From positions 1 through 64,000 of the forward strand of contig OMVJ01000004.1 in NCBI GenBank assembly GCA_900314495.1: 64,000 nucleotides of DNA. Direction: 5' to 3'. The DNA comes from an uncultured Olsenella sp. GTDB lineage: Bacteria; Actinomycetota; Coriobacteriia; Coriobacteriales; Atopobiaceae. Shown piece after piece: positions 2,331 through 6,484 of the stretch. A program made the position numbers and the translations under genes. The notes beneath the pieces were generated by a model. The model made no database searches, was not told the origin of the DNA, and saw nothing but the letters and a program-made list of their open reading frames with translations. How positions within the stretch are numbered: position 1 is the first letter of the stretch; each line of letters starts with the position of its first letter.

Positions 2331-2686
2331 TTTGCATTGCTCCTCAGCGACCGAACGACAACCTTGCCACTAGGCCAAACCGCCCTCAGTGACTCCCCGT
2401 GAGGCATCACCCACCAGAGGTTTCCTTACATCACGACGGTGCTATAGGTTGGTAGCGCCCCACAGTGATAACACGCGCGGCAGCACGCATGTTATTTCTC
2501 GGGGCTAACACGCGTGCGACGCTGCGCCGATTGCGCCAACTGGCCTCCTAGCACGTGCTGATCACCGCACGCGTGTTCCTGCGGGCAAACAACACGCGTG
2601 CCATCCGACCCTTGCGGAGTTTGCTCCAATGGCAGCCGGCAAGTCCGCCCGCACGTCTGGGGCCTGCTGCGTCCCGAGTGCCCATG
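2331..2686. other. Gene-free stretch upstream of the small-ORF array
   Basis: No convincing ORF. It contains the cluster of AACACGCGTG-type half-sites described separately (2468-2600), and its right end runs directly into the first small-ORF cassette. Confidence 0.5.
2468..2600. repeat. Cluster of AACACGCGTG-type inverted half-sites
   Basis: Five half-sites of one motif in both orientations: 2470-2479 and 2484-2493 (together an imperfect inverted repeat with ATAACA ends), 2507-2516, 2568-2577 and 2591-2600. The same motif recurs at 47.0-47.2 kb and as a single variant near 33953. It could be binding sites for one regulator or remnants of a short mobile element; the sequence alone does not decide. 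Confidence 0.5.
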
Positions 2687-2698
2687 CTGCAAGTTTCG

Positions 2699-2727
2699 TG
2701 CAACAAACCGCAGGTCAAGGCTATAAT
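2699..2727 (+). promoter_or_regulatory. Putative sense promoter, cassette A
   Basis: TGCAAC at 2699-2704, 17 bases, then a consensus TATAAT at 2722-2727. The -35 is poor but lies in a block conserved in all three copies. A start near 2734 would give a 5' untranslated region of about 100 bases. Confidence 0.45.
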
Positions 2728-2838
2728 CCGTTCGATTTCCCCGTAACGTCAGCGTCCCTCGCGTAGTAGAATCGCCCCACGGCCGACGGCCACACCGCGT
2801 GCGCAGGCAGCGCCTTTCCACAAAGAGAGGTGATGCCC

Positions 2839-2991
2839 ATGGATAAGCTGATCGTCTTCATCAACCTGGCCACCGCCCTGGCGGGGCTGGCGAGGGAGGT
2901 CCTGAAGCATATCGACGCACGAAGGGAGGGCCGCGATGACAACGGGGAGCCCCGGGCCAGGCCCAAAGCTCCCCGCCATCTAGGCAAGTAG
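2839..2991 (+). CDS. Small amphipathic peptide A, possible type I toxin
   Basis: Fifty residues, read from ATG 2839. The in-frame ATG at 2833 is too close to the AGAGAGG Shine-Dalgarno at 2824-2830, whereas 2839 has normal spacing. The first ~25 residues (MDKLIVFINLATALAGLA, then REVLKHI) form a strongly hydrophobic amphipathic helix. A basic, proline-rich tail follows (DARREGRD, then PRARPKAPRHLGK). Small membrane-active type I toxins such as TisB share this style of helix; there is no clear sequence identity. Membrane location and toxicity are inferred. Two paralogues with the same architecture follow within 1.6 kb. Confidence 0.6.
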   Translation: MDKLIVFINLATALAGLAREVLKHIDARREGRDDNGEPRARPKAPRHLGK

Positions 2992-3066
2992 GCCGCCGGG
3001 TCGCAACCGGCGGCTGAACGCTAACAACGGCGCTGCCTGGGCGACTCAAACGCAGGCGGCCGTCGG
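2935..3066 (-). ncRNA. Predicted antisense RNA to peptide A
   Basis: A promoter at 3071-3100 on the minus strand would start an RNA near 3065. It would run through the post-ORF hairpin and into the 3' coding end of peptide gene A, where a CGGGGAGC/GCTCCCCG stem (2943-2975) could end it. The length would be about 130 nt, complementary to the 3' part of the peptide mRNA. No expression evidence is available. Confidence 0.4.
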
Positions 3067-3070
3067 TCTC

Positions 3071-3100
3071 ATTGTACCCGCGCGTGCGGGCAGATTTCAA
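3071..3100 (-). promoter_or_regulatory. Antisense promoter, cassette A
   Basis: On the minus strand TTGAAA (3100-3095), an 18-base spacer, then TACAAT (3076-3071). Hexamers and spacing are identical in copies B and C although the spacer sequence differs, which is strong internal evidence for a functional promoter facing the peptide gene. Confidence 0.6.
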
Positions 3101-3183
3101 GTTGGTGCACAACTGGATGACCGACGTGACGCGGAGCCTCCGCACAGCGCCGACACAGGCACTGGCGCACCCTGCAAGTTTCG

Positions 3184-3212
3184 TGCAATAAACCGCAGGT
3201 CAACGGCACAAT
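3184..3212 (+). promoter_or_regulatory. Putative sense promoter, cassette B
   Basis: TGCAAT at 3184-3189, 17-base spacer, CACAAT at 3207-3212. Spacing matches copies A and C; the -10 is weaker than in A. Confidence 0.35.
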
Positions 3213-3321
3213 TCGTTCCATTCCCCCATGGCATCCGCACGCCTCGCGTAGTTGAATCGCCCCACGGCCGACGGCCGCACCGCGTGCGCAGGCAGCGCCT
3301 TCTGAAAAGGAGGTAAAGCCT

Positions 3322-3474
3322 ATGGATCTGCTGATCGTCCTTATACGGCTCACCACCGAACTGGTGGGGCTAGCCGGAAAGGTCTTGAAGCTCGTCGACG
3401 CACGAAGGGAGGGCCGCGATGACAACGGGGAGCCCCGGGCAAAGCCCAAAGCTCCCCGCCATCTAGGCAAGTAG
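3322..3474 (+). CDS. Small amphipathic peptide B, possible type I toxin
   Basis: Fifty residues starting MDLLIVLIRLTTELVGLAG. The start at ATG 3322 follows a strong AAGGAGG Shine-Dalgarno at 3307-3313. Charged residues Asp2, Arg9, Glu13, Lys20 and Lys23 fall mostly on one face of a helix whose other face is Leu/Ile/Val, a pattern like the membrane-active peptide TisB. The basic tail matches peptide A almost exactly (DARREGRDDNGEPRA, then KPKAPRHLGK). Function is inferred from architecture only. Confidence 0.6.
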   Translation: MDLLIVLIRLTTELVGLAGKVLKLVDARREGRDDNGEPRAKPKAPRHLGK

Positions 3475-3548
3475 GCCGCCGGGTCGCAACCGGCGGCTAA
3501 AAACTGAAAACGGCGCTGCCTGAGCCACCCAACGCAGGCGGCCGTCGG
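3418..3548 (-). ncRNA. Predicted antisense RNA to peptide B
   Basis: Would start about 6 bases beyond the minus-strand TACAAT at 3558-3553 and end near the CGGGGAGC (3426-3433) / GCTCCCCG (3451-3458) hairpin inside the peptide gene. Same geometry as in copies A and C. Predicted only. Confidence 0.4.
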
Positions 3549-3552
3549 TCTC

Positions 3553-3582
3553 ATTGTACCCACCTGGGCGGGCAGATTTCAA
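3553..3582 (-). promoter_or_regulatory. Antisense promoter, cassette B
   Basis: Minus-strand TTGAAA (3582-3577), 18-base spacer, TACAAT (3558-3553), conserved with copies A and C. Confidence 0.6.
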
Positions 3583-3693
3583 GTTGTCGCACACCCAAGC
3601 GAGCGACGTGGCACGGCCGCCTCTGCGCGGCGTCGGAACACGCTCGCGGAGCTGCCTGAACGCATAGGGTCGGTCTGAGCCGAGCCAACCCGC

Positions 3694-3727
3694 GGGGCGG
3701 GGAGTCGCGTACTCCCCGCCCCTTTCG
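3694..3727 (+). terminator. Rho-independent terminator
   Basis: A perfect 12-bp stem GGGGCGGGGAGT (3694-3705) / ACTCCCCGCCCC (3711-3722), a 5-base loop, then TTTCG. A near-identical terminator lies at 4160-4196. No ORF obviously ends just before it, so the transcript it closes is unknown. Confidence 0.6.
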
Positions 3728-3911
3728 TGCCAGGGCGTCGCGTGGCTGGGCCGCGCCGTGCTCCTCTCCGCCACGGTGGGCGATCGTGACACAGAATTAC
3801 CCCGTCTGACCTGCGGATTCTTTGGTGCTGGTACCGCACGCGGATGGAAACCCGCTCAATTTCGATGACCTTGACCTGCGGGTTCTCTCCGCCCCGGGGA
3901 GCACGGGACCA

Positions 3912-4006
3912 GAAAAACCGTCGCACCTTGGTTGTGGTGACCCGGAAAATACCCAGTTGGCGCATCAAGAACTGTAGCAATATGGCCGAATGTGCGACGG
4001 TTTTTC
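3912..4006. repeat. Short element with 15-bp perfect inverted ends
   Basis: GAAAAACCGTCGCAC (3912-3926) is repeated exactly in inverse orientation at 3992-4006, with 65 bases between. Matching continues imperfectly outside. It may be a degenerate miniature element or the base of a hairpin. Confidence 0.4.
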
Positions 4007-4196
4007 GGGTGCCAAACGCCCGCAGGGGAAGTGAGCACCCTTCCCAAGCGCTATGGGGACGAAGGTTTGGCCGCACACGGCCATGAATCGCCTGCAAACC
4101 TCCCGACCCCATGCAAGCGAAGCATGCGCGCCGCAATGCCTCGCCTGAGACCAGCCCACGGGGCGGGGAGTCGCGTACTCCCCGCCCCTTTTGTTA
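4007..4196 (+). ncRNA. Possible structured small RNA
   Basis: A run of potential stems ends in a good terminator. GGGTGC (4007-4012) pairs with GCACCC (4035-4040). AGGTTT (4063-4068) pairs with AAACCT (4096-4101) around an inner GGCCG/CGGCC stem (4069-4082). CATGC (4110-4114) pairs with GCATG (4122-4126). The terminator stem is at 4160-4188. No ORF is evident and I could not identify a clear promoter. The array of peptides on both sides makes a regulatory RNA plausible but unproven. Confidence 0.25.
4160..4196 (+). terminator. Rho-independent terminator before cassette C
   Basis: Stem GGGGCGGGGAGT (4160-4171) / ACTCCCCGCCCC (4177-4188) followed by TTTTGTT. It ends just before the conserved box of cassette C and would insulate it from upstream transcription. 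Confidence 0.7.
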
Positions 4197-4210
4197 ATCT
4201 GCAAGTTTCG

Positions 4211-4239
4211 TGCAATAAACCGCAGGTCAAAGCCATAAT
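4211..4239 (+). promoter_or_regulatory. Putative sense promoter, cassette C
   Basis: TGCAAT at 4211-4216, 17-base spacer, CATAAT at 4234-4239, directly after the terminator at 4160-4196. Confidence 0.4.
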
Positions 4240-4349
4240 TCGATGCATTCCCCCATAGCGCGTTCGCGCCTCGCGTAGTAGAATCGCCCCACGGCCGACG
4301 GCCACACCGCGTGCGCAGGCAGCGCCTTTCCAAGAGAGAGGTGATGCCC

Positions 4350-4499
4350 ATGGATCTGCTGATCGTCCTCATACGGCTCACCACCGAACTGGTGGAACTG
4401 GCCGGAAAGGTCTTGAAGCTCATCGACGCGCGAAGGGAGGGCCGCGATGCAAAGGAGGGGCCTCGGGGCAAGCCCCGAGGCCCCTCCCCGCCATCTTAG
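4350..4499 (+). CDS. Small amphipathic peptide C, possible type I toxin
   Basis: Forty-nine residues starting MDLLIVLIRLTTELVELAG, nearly identical to peptide B over the helix. The start is ATG 4350, preceded by AGAGAGG with normal spacing. The tail differs from A and B (DAKEGPRGKPRGPSPPS) because codons ~36-46 have been replaced by a perfect 16-bp hairpin (4454-4469 / 4472-4487, AA loop). The N-terminal helix and DARREGRD motif are conserved. That the helix is conserved while the tail can change suggests that the helix is the active part and the 3' end acts as RNA structure. Confidence 0.6.
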   Translation: MDLLIVLIRLTTELVELAGKVLKLIDARREGRDAKEGPRGKPRGPSPPS

Positions 4500-4580
4500 C
4501 AAGTAGGCCGCCGGCCTCGAAACCGGCGGCTCAAAGCGAAAACGGCGCTGCCTGACACCCCAAGCGCAGGCGGCCGTCGG
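4448..4580 (-). ncRNA. Predicted antisense RNA to peptide C
   Basis: Would start near 4579, downstream of the minus-strand TACAAT at 4590-4585. It could terminate at the 16-bp hairpin 4454-4487, which on the minus strand is followed by TTTGC. Of the three copies this one has the best antisense terminator. Confidence 0.45.
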
Positions 4581-4584
4581 TCTC

Positions 4585-4614
4585 ATTGTACCCACGCAGG
4601 CGGGCGGCTTTCAA
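4585..4614 (-). promoter_or_regulatory. Antisense promoter, cassette C
   Basis: Minus-strand TTGAAA (4614-4609), 18-base spacer, TACAAT (4590-4585). Confidence 0.6.
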
Positions 4615-4654
4615 GCGCGAGTCAGAGCGCAACAACCGGGAAAGATCTTCTTCG

Positions 4655-6484
4655 CTACAGCAGCCCCTCCAGCTCGTCCACCAAGGCCGCGAACCGCTTC
4701 AGGGCCTCGTCCACGGCGGCACCGTTGGCCATGTCCACCCCGGCACCCGCAAGCAGGTCCAGCGGCGGCTTGGAGCAGCCGCCGCGCAGGAAGCCAAGGT
4801 AGGCGTCGCGGGCAGGCGCGCCGCCCTTCAGAATGCGCTCCGCAAGGGCCACCGCGGCGGCGAAGCTGGTGGCGTATACGTACACGTAGTAGTTGTAGTA
4901 GAAGTGCGGGATGCGAGCCCACTCCAGGGAAATGTCGTCGTCCACCTTCAGCGCGGGGCCGTAGTACAGCTCGTTGAGCTTGCCATAGCGCTCGCTCAGG
5001 GCGTCCGCGCCCGTGCCTTCCCCGCGCGCGGAGGCCTCGTTGGCGTCGCGCTCGAACTCCGCGAAGAGCGTCTGGCGGTACAGGGCGTTCTTGAACTGGC
5101 TGCACCAGTGGTCCAGCAGGAAGGCGCGCTCCTGCACGGACGCGGCGTGGTCCAGCAGGTACTGCAGGAGCAGCATCTCGTTGGTGGTGGAGGCCACCTC
5201 CGCCACGAACATCTCGTACTCGGAGTAGCGCACCGGCTGGCTGTGGCTGGAGAGCCACGTGTGCAGGGAATGGCCGGTCTCGTGCGCAAGCACGAACAGA
5301 TCCTCGAGAGACCCCTGCCAGTTAAGCAGAATGAGCGGGGCAATGCCGCGGCCGCCGCAGCTGTAGGCGCCACTGCGCTTGCCCGGGGTCTCGTACACGT
5401 CGTACCAGCGGTCGCTTATGGCCTGGCGCACCACGGCAAGGTAGTCCTGGCCCAGGGGCGCGAGGGCGGCGAGCATTATGTCGCAGGCCTCCTCGAACGT
5501 GTAGTGGTGCTCGGGGGCCTGCACGGTGGGCAGGTAGACGTCCCAGTAGCGCATCTGCTCCAGCCCCAGGCGATGCGCGCGCAGGGCCATGTAGCGGTGC
5601 ATAGGTTCCACGTTGGCGTGCACGGCCTGAATGAGCCCGCTGTAGACGGAGACGGGCACCTCCGTGGGCGCCAGGCTGGCCTCCAGGCTGCTGCCGTAGT
5701 GGCGGGCGCGGGCAAAGAACTCAAGGGACTTCATCTGCGCGCCCAGAATGGCGGCGCTGGTGTTCTTGACCTTGCGGTAGGCGCCGTACACGCTGTGATA
5801 GGCGTTCTGACGCAGCGTGCGGTCCGGGCTGACCTCCAGCACGGCCGTGAAATTGCCATGGGTGACGGTGTGCGGCTGGCCCTGGGAGTCCAGCGCGTCC
5901 GGAAAGGCCATGTCCGCCTCGTTGAGCATGGAGAACTCCCGCTCTGGCGCGGCGGCTAGCTCCCCCGCCTGGGCCAGCAGGGCCTCCTCCGCGGGGCTCA
6001 GCACGTGGTCGCGCAGGGCGCGCATCTTCTGCAGCGCACGACGGTAGAGGGCAAGGTCCGGCTCCTGGGCGTACCAGGCGTCAAGAGTTGCGTCGTCCAG
6101 GGCCAGAAGCGCCGGCTGGAACCAGGCCGCCGCAGCACCAACGCGGGCCGCCAGGGCGTGCACTTGGCCCACCAGGTCCTGCCAGCGGTTAATGCGGGTG
6201 TCCTCGTCTCCCCGGCGCTCCAGGTACTCCCACACGCGCTGCAGCTTGGACGTGGCCTCGTCATCAAAGCGCAGGAAGCCCAAGAGCCCCGCGGCCGTGG
6301 CGGTAGCACGGTCCTGCCAGGCGGCGTACTCCTCCGGCAGGCTCTGGCACTCCCCCAGCGAAGCCAGGCAGGCCTCGTCTGAGGGGAACCACAGCGTCAG
6401 GTTCCACTTGTACTTCTGCGGCACCTGGTCGCGCGAGGAATAGGCCACGGTCTCGCTTGCCGCGGTCTTGCTTTCGTCTTGCAT
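4655..6484 (-). CDS. pepF: Oligoendopeptidase F (M3B family)
   Basis: Cytosolic zinc metallopeptidase of 609 residues, the usual PepF length, which cleaves short peptides after import. The zinc motif HETGH is at residues 401-405, with the third ligand Glu429 in YSEYEMFVAEVAS. The N-terminal half is the helical lobe that restricts access to peptides. The start at ATG 6484 has a GGAGGA Shine-Dalgarno. It lies just downstream of the oppBCDF genes on the same strand, separated by a strong terminator at 6502-6552, so peptide uptake and hydrolysis are adjacent but can be expressed separately. Confidence 0.93.
   Translation of the reverse strand: MQDESKTAASETVAYSSRDQVPQKYKWNLTLWFPSDEACLASLGECQSLPEEYAAWQDRATATAAGLLGFLRFDDEATSKLQRVWEYLERRGDEDTRINRWQDLVGQVHALAARVGAAAAWFQPALLALDDATLDAWYAQEPDLALYRRALQKMRALRDHVLSPAEEALLAQAGELAAAPEREFSMLNEADMAFPDALDSQGQPHTVTHGNFTAVLEVSPDRTLRQNAYHSVYGAYRKVKNTSAAILGAQMKSLEFFARARHYGSSLEASLAPTEVPVSVYSGLIQAVHANVEPMHRYMALRAHRLGLEQMRYWDVYLPTVQAPEHHYTFEEACDIMLAALAPLGQDYLAVVRQAISDRWYDVYETPGKRSGAYSCGGRGIAPLILLNWQGSLEDLFVLAHETGHSLHTWLSSHSQPVRYSEYEMFVAEVASTTNEMLLLQYLLDHAASVQERAFLLDHWCSQFKNALYRQTLFAEFERDANEASARGEGTGADALSERYGKLNELYYGPALKVDDDISLEWARIPHFYYNYYVYVYATSFAAAVALAERILKGGAPARDAYLGFLRGGCSKPPLDLLAGAGVDMANGAAVDEALKRFAALVDELEGLL

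Follow-up and report, generated by a model that had tools for sequence, protein, structure and literature searches.

A putative type I toxin-antitoxin family of Coriobacteriales with an inverted copy of the toxin leader at the start of its antitoxin gene

Introduction

Close to the left end of contig OMVJ01000004.1 from an uncultured Olsenella sp. (GenBank assembly GCA_900314495.1; Actinomycetota, Coriobacteriia, Coriobacteriales, Atopobiaceae), three similar units follow one another between positions 2687 and 4615. Each encodes a very short peptide and is faced by a promoter on the opposite strand that points into the peptide gene. What is such a unit for, and does the opposed promoter belong to it? 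An initial annotation of the 64,000-nucleotide (nt) stretch analyzed here (positions 1 to 64,000 of the contig; hereafter, the window) proposed a type I toxin-antitoxin locus. Two marks of such systems can be recognized: a gene for a small (<60 amino acids, aa), hydrophobic peptide under selection and, by prediction, a non-coding antisense RNA that has its own promoter and terminator and is complementary to the toxin mRNA. The conservation of the peptide/RNA pair, with the RNA opposite 37 of 39 loci picked by their peptide, supports the proposal, and each cassette is in our judgment very probably a type I module. The cassettes would apparently represent a new type I family, the first in Actinomycetota.

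The cassettes and their peptides

As the initial annotation claimed, the array consists of three homologous units, at 2691-3101, 3176-3583 and 4203-4615; direct-repeat families of 148, 228 and 83 nt recur in the window at spacings of 483-485 and about 1028. From left to right, a unit is composed of a 25-mer element, a -10 box, two leader arms, a Shine-Dalgarno (SD) sequence (GAGAGGTG in front of peptide 1), an open reading frame (ORF) of 49-50 codons, a hairpin at the stop codon, inverted counterparts of the leader arms, and the minus-strand promoter (Table 1). The source genome (2.8 Mb in 65 contigs) carries additional cassettes on two further contigs, one on C42 and three on C54; two of the latter are intact and the third, C54a, is decayed, having lost its ORF start and retained its RNA.

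The three peptides have the predicted lengths (50, 50 and 49 aa). Copies 2 and 3 begin exactly with the N-terminal motif given for them, MDLLIVLIRL, and copy 1 begins with MDKLIVFINL. Across 45 non-redundant loci the peptides span 34-53 aa, the N-terminus is amphipathic (hydrophobic moment above that of shuffled sequence, z>1) in 36, and the tail carries a net positive charge in 39. The ratio of nonsynonymous to synonymous changes (pN/pS; pooled = 0.53, first 28 codons = 0.41) suggests that the peptide is under purifying selection. The peptides nevertheless differ greatly from clade to clade, and a peptide-only search of relatives returned almost no matches because they diverge too fast; a model of the RNA was the key to finding the family. 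Two weak matches from the peptide search (L010 and L011) were rejected as unrelated reading frames.

The C-terminal codons of each window copy also form a long hairpin (GGGGAGC../..GCTCCCC; 2935-2981, 3418-3464 and 4446-4495), which in copy 3 has been rebuilt from a different sequence.

The antisense RNA

The opposed TTGAAA-N18-TACAAT promoters were said to share hexamers and spacing and to differ in their spacers. All three are indeed present on the minus strand at the positions given in Table 1, with spacers that vary among the copies, and a neutral promoter scan of 2600-4700 found only these sites, against 0.3 expected in shuffles. The antitoxin promoters of the source genome have both a -10 and a -35 element, whereas the toxin promoters have a -10 box, placed 70-72 nt ahead of the start codon in the window cassettes, and lack a -35.

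The predicted antisense RNA is about 80 nt long, with a variable-loop stem at its 5' end and a terminator hairpin after it; its match overlaps only the stop codon and 3' region of the peptide gene. Compensatory changes occur in both hairpins of R1, a covariance model built from only the seven own-genome RNA copies and comprising the promoter, the variable-loop hairpin and the terminator hairpin. RNAalifold recovers two hairpins from a sequence-only alignment of 52 RNAs, in which 11 of 16 stem pairs have changed on both sides (128 such cells, as compared with 30 in shuffled and 11-27 in slid controls). The second hairpin (GCCGCCGG/CCGGCGGC in antisense RNA 1) is placed at the stop codon of the peptide, and the T-rich tract that follows it lies in the antisense direction in 45/52 RNAs and in the sense direction in 1/52, which argues that the hairpin is the terminator of a minus-strand RNA. 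Many codons for the basic peptide tail (AAA, AAG, AGA) lie opposite this U-tract, which may explain why the tail is positive. The apical loop of the 5' stem is variable (1.55 bits) and its arms near-fixed (0.45-0.57 bits), a pattern that holds within the source genome (loop 0.94 bits, arms 0.17-0.27 bits) and would be expected if an antitoxin has to recognize the mRNA of its own cassette.

Pairing of peptide and RNA across genomes

Within the family of the source genome, placed as Atopobiaceae by a pattern scan of named genomes (Olsenella, Thermophilibacter and metagenome-assembled genomes), model R1 matches 40 of the 140 genomes, and within the order Coriobacteriales it matches 62 of 299. With a second, broader covariance model, R2, matches rise to 100/398 genomes of the class in 33/153 genera, with up to nine copies each, all inside the order; two of the families represented, f10 and f2, probably correspond to Coriobacteriaceae and Eggerthellaceae. 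R2 had no match outside the order in a phylum-wide sample of 396 genomes, and neither cassette nor pattern was matched in phages, plasmids, viral contigs or E. coli genomes.

An ORF with an SD sequence, a start codon and a hydrophobic N-terminus lies opposite 59 of 82 RNA matches, and all 59 stop codons fall between -10 and +35 nt from the RNA 3' end, as compared with 1.2% at random positions in the same loci. The association also holds in the other direction: peptide-alone searches in two genera found the RNA directly opposite in 37 of 39 loci, the exceptions being L172, which runs to the contig end, and L181, which is decayed, its leader and start lost. Intact toxins that lack an antitoxin were thus not seen, and antitoxins without a toxin are common. 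The initial annotation expected a conserved sense/antisense pair in many genomes, which is what the Coriobacteriales genomes hold, with 1-9 copies; the outcome that it named as refuting, peptide homologues never accompanied by the antisense promoter, was sought and not found.

Such data suit any peptide/antisense pair equally, including a non-toxic small membrane protein that is tuned by a cis-antisense RNA and forms a regulatory pair rather than an addiction module, and the large variation of the peptides between clades fits that alternative as well. We nonetheless regard it as unlikely: tandem multiplication, varying copy number and patchy distribution make up a toxin-antitoxin pattern, RNAs outlive decayed ORFs (C54a and a locus on contig C18) whereas no intact ORF lacking the RNA turned up, and a weak sense promoter is opposed by a strong antisense one, as in toxin-antitoxin loci.

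The toxin leader recurs inverted at the antitoxin start

The start of the antitoxin RNA repeats the sequence of the toxin mRNA leader. In local alignments, leaders score on average 25.6 against their own antitoxin, 20.3 against non-cognate antitoxins and 14.5 against shuffled sequence; at one locus of the RF01700 type (see below), the alignment takes in the -10 box (GGGTAAAATC / GGGTAGAATC). Because the antitoxin gene starts with an inverted copy of the leader and, where the alignment reaches it, of the -10 box, the predicted 3' end of the toxin mRNA is complementary to two partners: perfectly to the antitoxin, and also to the mRNA's own leader immediately ahead of the ribosome-binding site. 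The pairing element includes a leader arm, GGCAGCGCC, and a 3' arm, GGCGCTGCC. None of 20,000 permutations gave as low an energy as the cognate leader/3'-end pairing, and lineage-specific changes in the leader are compensated in the 3' end (GGCAGAGCC/GGCTCTGCC, GGCAACGCC/GGCGTTGCC). Leader, mRNA 3' end and antitoxin share one covarying pairing element, and we infer that the inverted copy arose by inverted duplication. A broader proposition, that throughout the order type I antitoxins derive from inverted duplication of the toxin promoter and leader, that leader and antitoxin compete for the mRNA 3' end, and that the Collinsella-1 RNA is one branch of this group, seems to us slightly better than an even bet.

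A leader and a 3' end that are complementary and covary would also fit a region whose main role is to regulate the mRNA in cis by folding back on it, with the minus-strand promoter secondary; that the promoter hexamers and U-tract are kept on the minus strand only, and that loci without a toxin retain the RNA, makes this quite improbable. An ORF flanked by inverted repeats about 215 nt apart, in several copies per genome, is also reminiscent of a miniature mobile element, its repeats being transposon ends and its peptide incidental. However, homology does not stop at the repeats: on the left it reaches the 25-mer, about 95 nt farther out, and on the right the antisense -35, about 35 nt farther out, and its outer ends form no inverted repeats; nor would one expect such an element to have a strand-specific terminator or a peptide under purifying selection. 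This explanation, which we consider hardly credible, was rejected on the homology boundaries and is largely refuted.

A proposed model of toxin control

In the type I toxin-antitoxin scheme that these features suggest, a weakly promoted gene, with a -10 but no -35, encodes a putative toxin that begins with an amphipathic helix and in most cases ends in a basic tail, and a strong sigma-70-type promoter downstream reads back over the 3' end of the gene to give the short predicted antitoxin RNA. The full-length toxin mRNA would fold back, leader upon 3' end, with its SD also held in a local hairpin, and would be poorly translated. The abundant antitoxin would pair with the final stretch of the ORF and the mRNA 3' end, beginning at the variable loop, which would keep each paralogue specific to its own mRNA, and the duplex would be cut by a double-strand RNase. 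If the toxin promoter were induced, or antitoxin synthesis stopped, the peptide would be made, enter the membrane, and depolarize or arrest the cell.

Several observations count against parts of this scheme. The U-tract is weak in the three window copies and in C42, so that the antitoxin 3' end is uncertain there; the long hairpin of the C-terminal codons may replace the antitoxin terminator in the window copies. An intact peptide is absent opposite 23 of the 82 RNAs. Partition-function folding commits most of the leader to the 3' end in only 16 of the 45 loci; in energy models the SD is already covered by the local hairpin and is buried no further by the fold-back. Since folding hides no more of the SD, silencing by fold-back is the weakest step of the proposal.

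Comparison with known systems

Antisense RNAs that overlap the 3' end of their target act through duplex formation, cleavage by a double-strand RNase and structural change, and type I peptides typically act on the membrane (PMC6733600; PMC4147584). Close architectural parallels are TxpA/RatA and BsrG/SR4 of Bacillus subtilis, which share with the window cassettes a convergent 3'-end overlap, a small membrane peptide and a ribosome-binding site outside the overlap (PMC4147584). Pfam, NCBIfam and Rfam reveal no sequence relationship to these systems, and the inverted leader copy seen here at the antitoxin start has no counterpart described for either pair in the same review (PMC4147584). AapA/IsoA of Helicobacter and hok/Sok provide precedents for 5'-3' long-distance pairing of the full-length mRNA, for SD-sequestering local hairpins and for the coexistence of several paralogues, each with an antitoxin specific to its module (PMC6733600). 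In AapA, long-distance pairing traps the SD itself, whereas the window family would pair the leader just upstream of it; and, unlike in AapA, the segment that pairs coincides with the antitoxin gene.

A short amphipathic helix peptide is shared with TisB/IstR-1 and ZorO/OrzO of E. coli, in which the antitoxin targets the 5' untranslated region (PMC4147584); the window antitoxin instead overlaps the 3' end. The description of the peptides as TisB-like is apt as a resemblance and fails as homology: the Pfam TisB profile (PF13939) matches none of the window peptides and only two of ten family members, at 13.4 and 12.1 bits, far below the cut-off of 25. Searches of Pfam, NCBIfam and PHROGs gave no match for the peptides, and in Rfam nothing scored above threshold.

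According to a 2025 paper, type I systems were known only in Proteobacteria, Firmicutes and Tenericutes, with a candidate reported in Cyanobacteria (PMC12390103). In the open-licence literature, no type I system was found for Coriobacteriia or Actinomycetota, though a report outside it may exist.

Relation to the orphan RNA family RF01700

A low-threshold Rfam search of 321 nt matched RF01700 (Collinsella-1) at 3476-3647 on the minus strand of the window (22.8 bits, E 4.5e-4). This is below the gathering cut-off of 35 bits, and by score the window RNA is therefore no member of RF01700, a family published in 2010 without a function (PMC2864571). The two RNAs are nevertheless built alike: RF01700 has a promoter-like GGGTAaAAT box inside its model, hairpin arms ending in CGGGCRRCGC, and then a terminator hairpin. 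Opposite the RNA, 10 of 22 RF01700 loci checked encode an amphipathic micropeptide (e.g., MDMNFVLKVLQSLALVASIARTSLDVVREARELIREHRHHNG, MDTILQVIRALGALSSIARLLFELSERWNRRKHIAEDERQK), and its leader repeats the RNA start. The peptide sequences differ from those of the window family, the RF01700 RNA is as a rule placed immediately past the ORF and does not overlap its end, and the best-scoring members have no peptide opposite. We read RF01700 as a putative sister antitoxin family of the window RNA, and its likely function is as the antitoxin of the peptide opposite. The claim that no described family is involved thus holds for the peptide; the RNA has a described, if functionless, sister.

The source genome has an RF01700-type cassette of its own (L137, contig C18, ~1301-1692). 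Its leader and RNA are intact, and the toxin ORF has lost its hydrophobic part through an internal deletion (MDVDEFVESVSTKTDDA); it is apparently a disarmed copy.

Upstream element and surroundings of the array

The 25-mer AAGTTTCGTGCAATAAACCGCAGGT occurs exactly six times in the genome (≤3 mismatches), each time upstream of one of the six intact toxins and at a constant distance, ~132 nt ahead of the start codon in the window cassettes; the reversed pattern, used as a control, has no match. A comparison with LexA-like and other known operators led to no identification, and the element is a putative dedicated control site. If the bases that precede it are included, the 25-mer has direct repeats of TGCAA at a distance of 11 bp.

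Table 1. Positions of cassette elements in the window.
Feature	Position	Strand	Remarks
25-mer element, cassette 1 (AAGTTTCGTGCAAYAAACCGCAGGT)	2691..2715	+	~132 nt before start codon
25-mer element, cassette 2	3176..3200	+	pattern match
25-mer element, cassette 3	4203..4227	+	pattern match
Toxin -10 box TAGAAT, cassette 1	2767..2772	+	no recognizable -35
Toxin -10 box TTGAAT, cassette 2	3252..3257	+	
Toxin -10 box TAGAAT, cassette 3	4279..4284	+	
Leader pairing arms, toxin 1	2783..2814	+	CCGACGGCC (2783-2791) and CAGGCAGCGCC (2804-2814), complementary to 3058-3066 and 3029-3039
Peptide 1, 50 aa (MDKLIVFINLATALAGLAREVLKHIDARREGRDDNGEPRARPKAPRHLGK)	2839..2991	+	ATG at 2839
Peptide 2, 50 aa (MDLLIVLIRLTTELVGLAGKVLKLVDARREGRDDNGEPRAKPKAPRHLGK)	3322..3474	+	ATG at 3322
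Peptide 3, 49 aa (MDLLIVLIRLTTELVELAGKVLKLIDARREGRDAKEGPRGKPRGPSPPS)	4350..4499	+	ATG at 4350; C-terminus encoded by long perfect hairpin
Antisense RNA gene 1 (predicted)	2981..3101	-	promoter TTGAAA-N18-TACAAT 3100-3071; predicted RNA from ~3064 leftward; E 2.8e-30
Antisense RNA gene 2 (predicted)	3464..3583	-	promoter 3582-3553; E 2.0e-30; sub-threshold RF01700 match 3476-3647
Antisense RNA gene 3 (predicted)	4496..4615	-	promoter 4614-4585; E 9.0e-27
Terminator-position hairpin, antisense RNA 1	2992..3014	.	covarying stem
Fold-back region, toxin mRNA 1 (GGCGCTGCCTG, GGCCGTCGG)	3029..3066	+	DNA of the antisense 5' hairpin

The interval from cassette 2 to cassette 3 contains two copies of a 44-bp palindromic, terminator-like sequence (GGGGCGGGGAGTCGCGTACTCCCCGCCCC followed by T; 3685-3728 and 4151-4194). 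The same interval holds an imperfect 46-nt inverted repeat (3884-3929 / 3989-4034), close to which are fragments resembling the reversed 25-mer (ACCTTGACCTGCGGGTT); repeat and fragments are possibly the remains of a lost cassette. The array adjoins a gene (202-1730) with HNH_2 endonuclease and DUF1016_N domains (YhcG-type, the C-terminal part weak), and the C54 array adjoins a gene for an SNF2-type helicase.

Implications

If the proposal is true, the family adds Actinomycetota to the range of type I toxin-antitoxin systems. It is present in about a quarter of the sampled genomes of the class, which belong to several families of bacteria common in the gut, and RF01700, without a function since 2010, gains one that can be tested. 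The anatomy of the cassettes suggests a simple way in which an antitoxin may be born: the promoter and leader of the toxin gene are copied, in reverse, to the other end of the gene.

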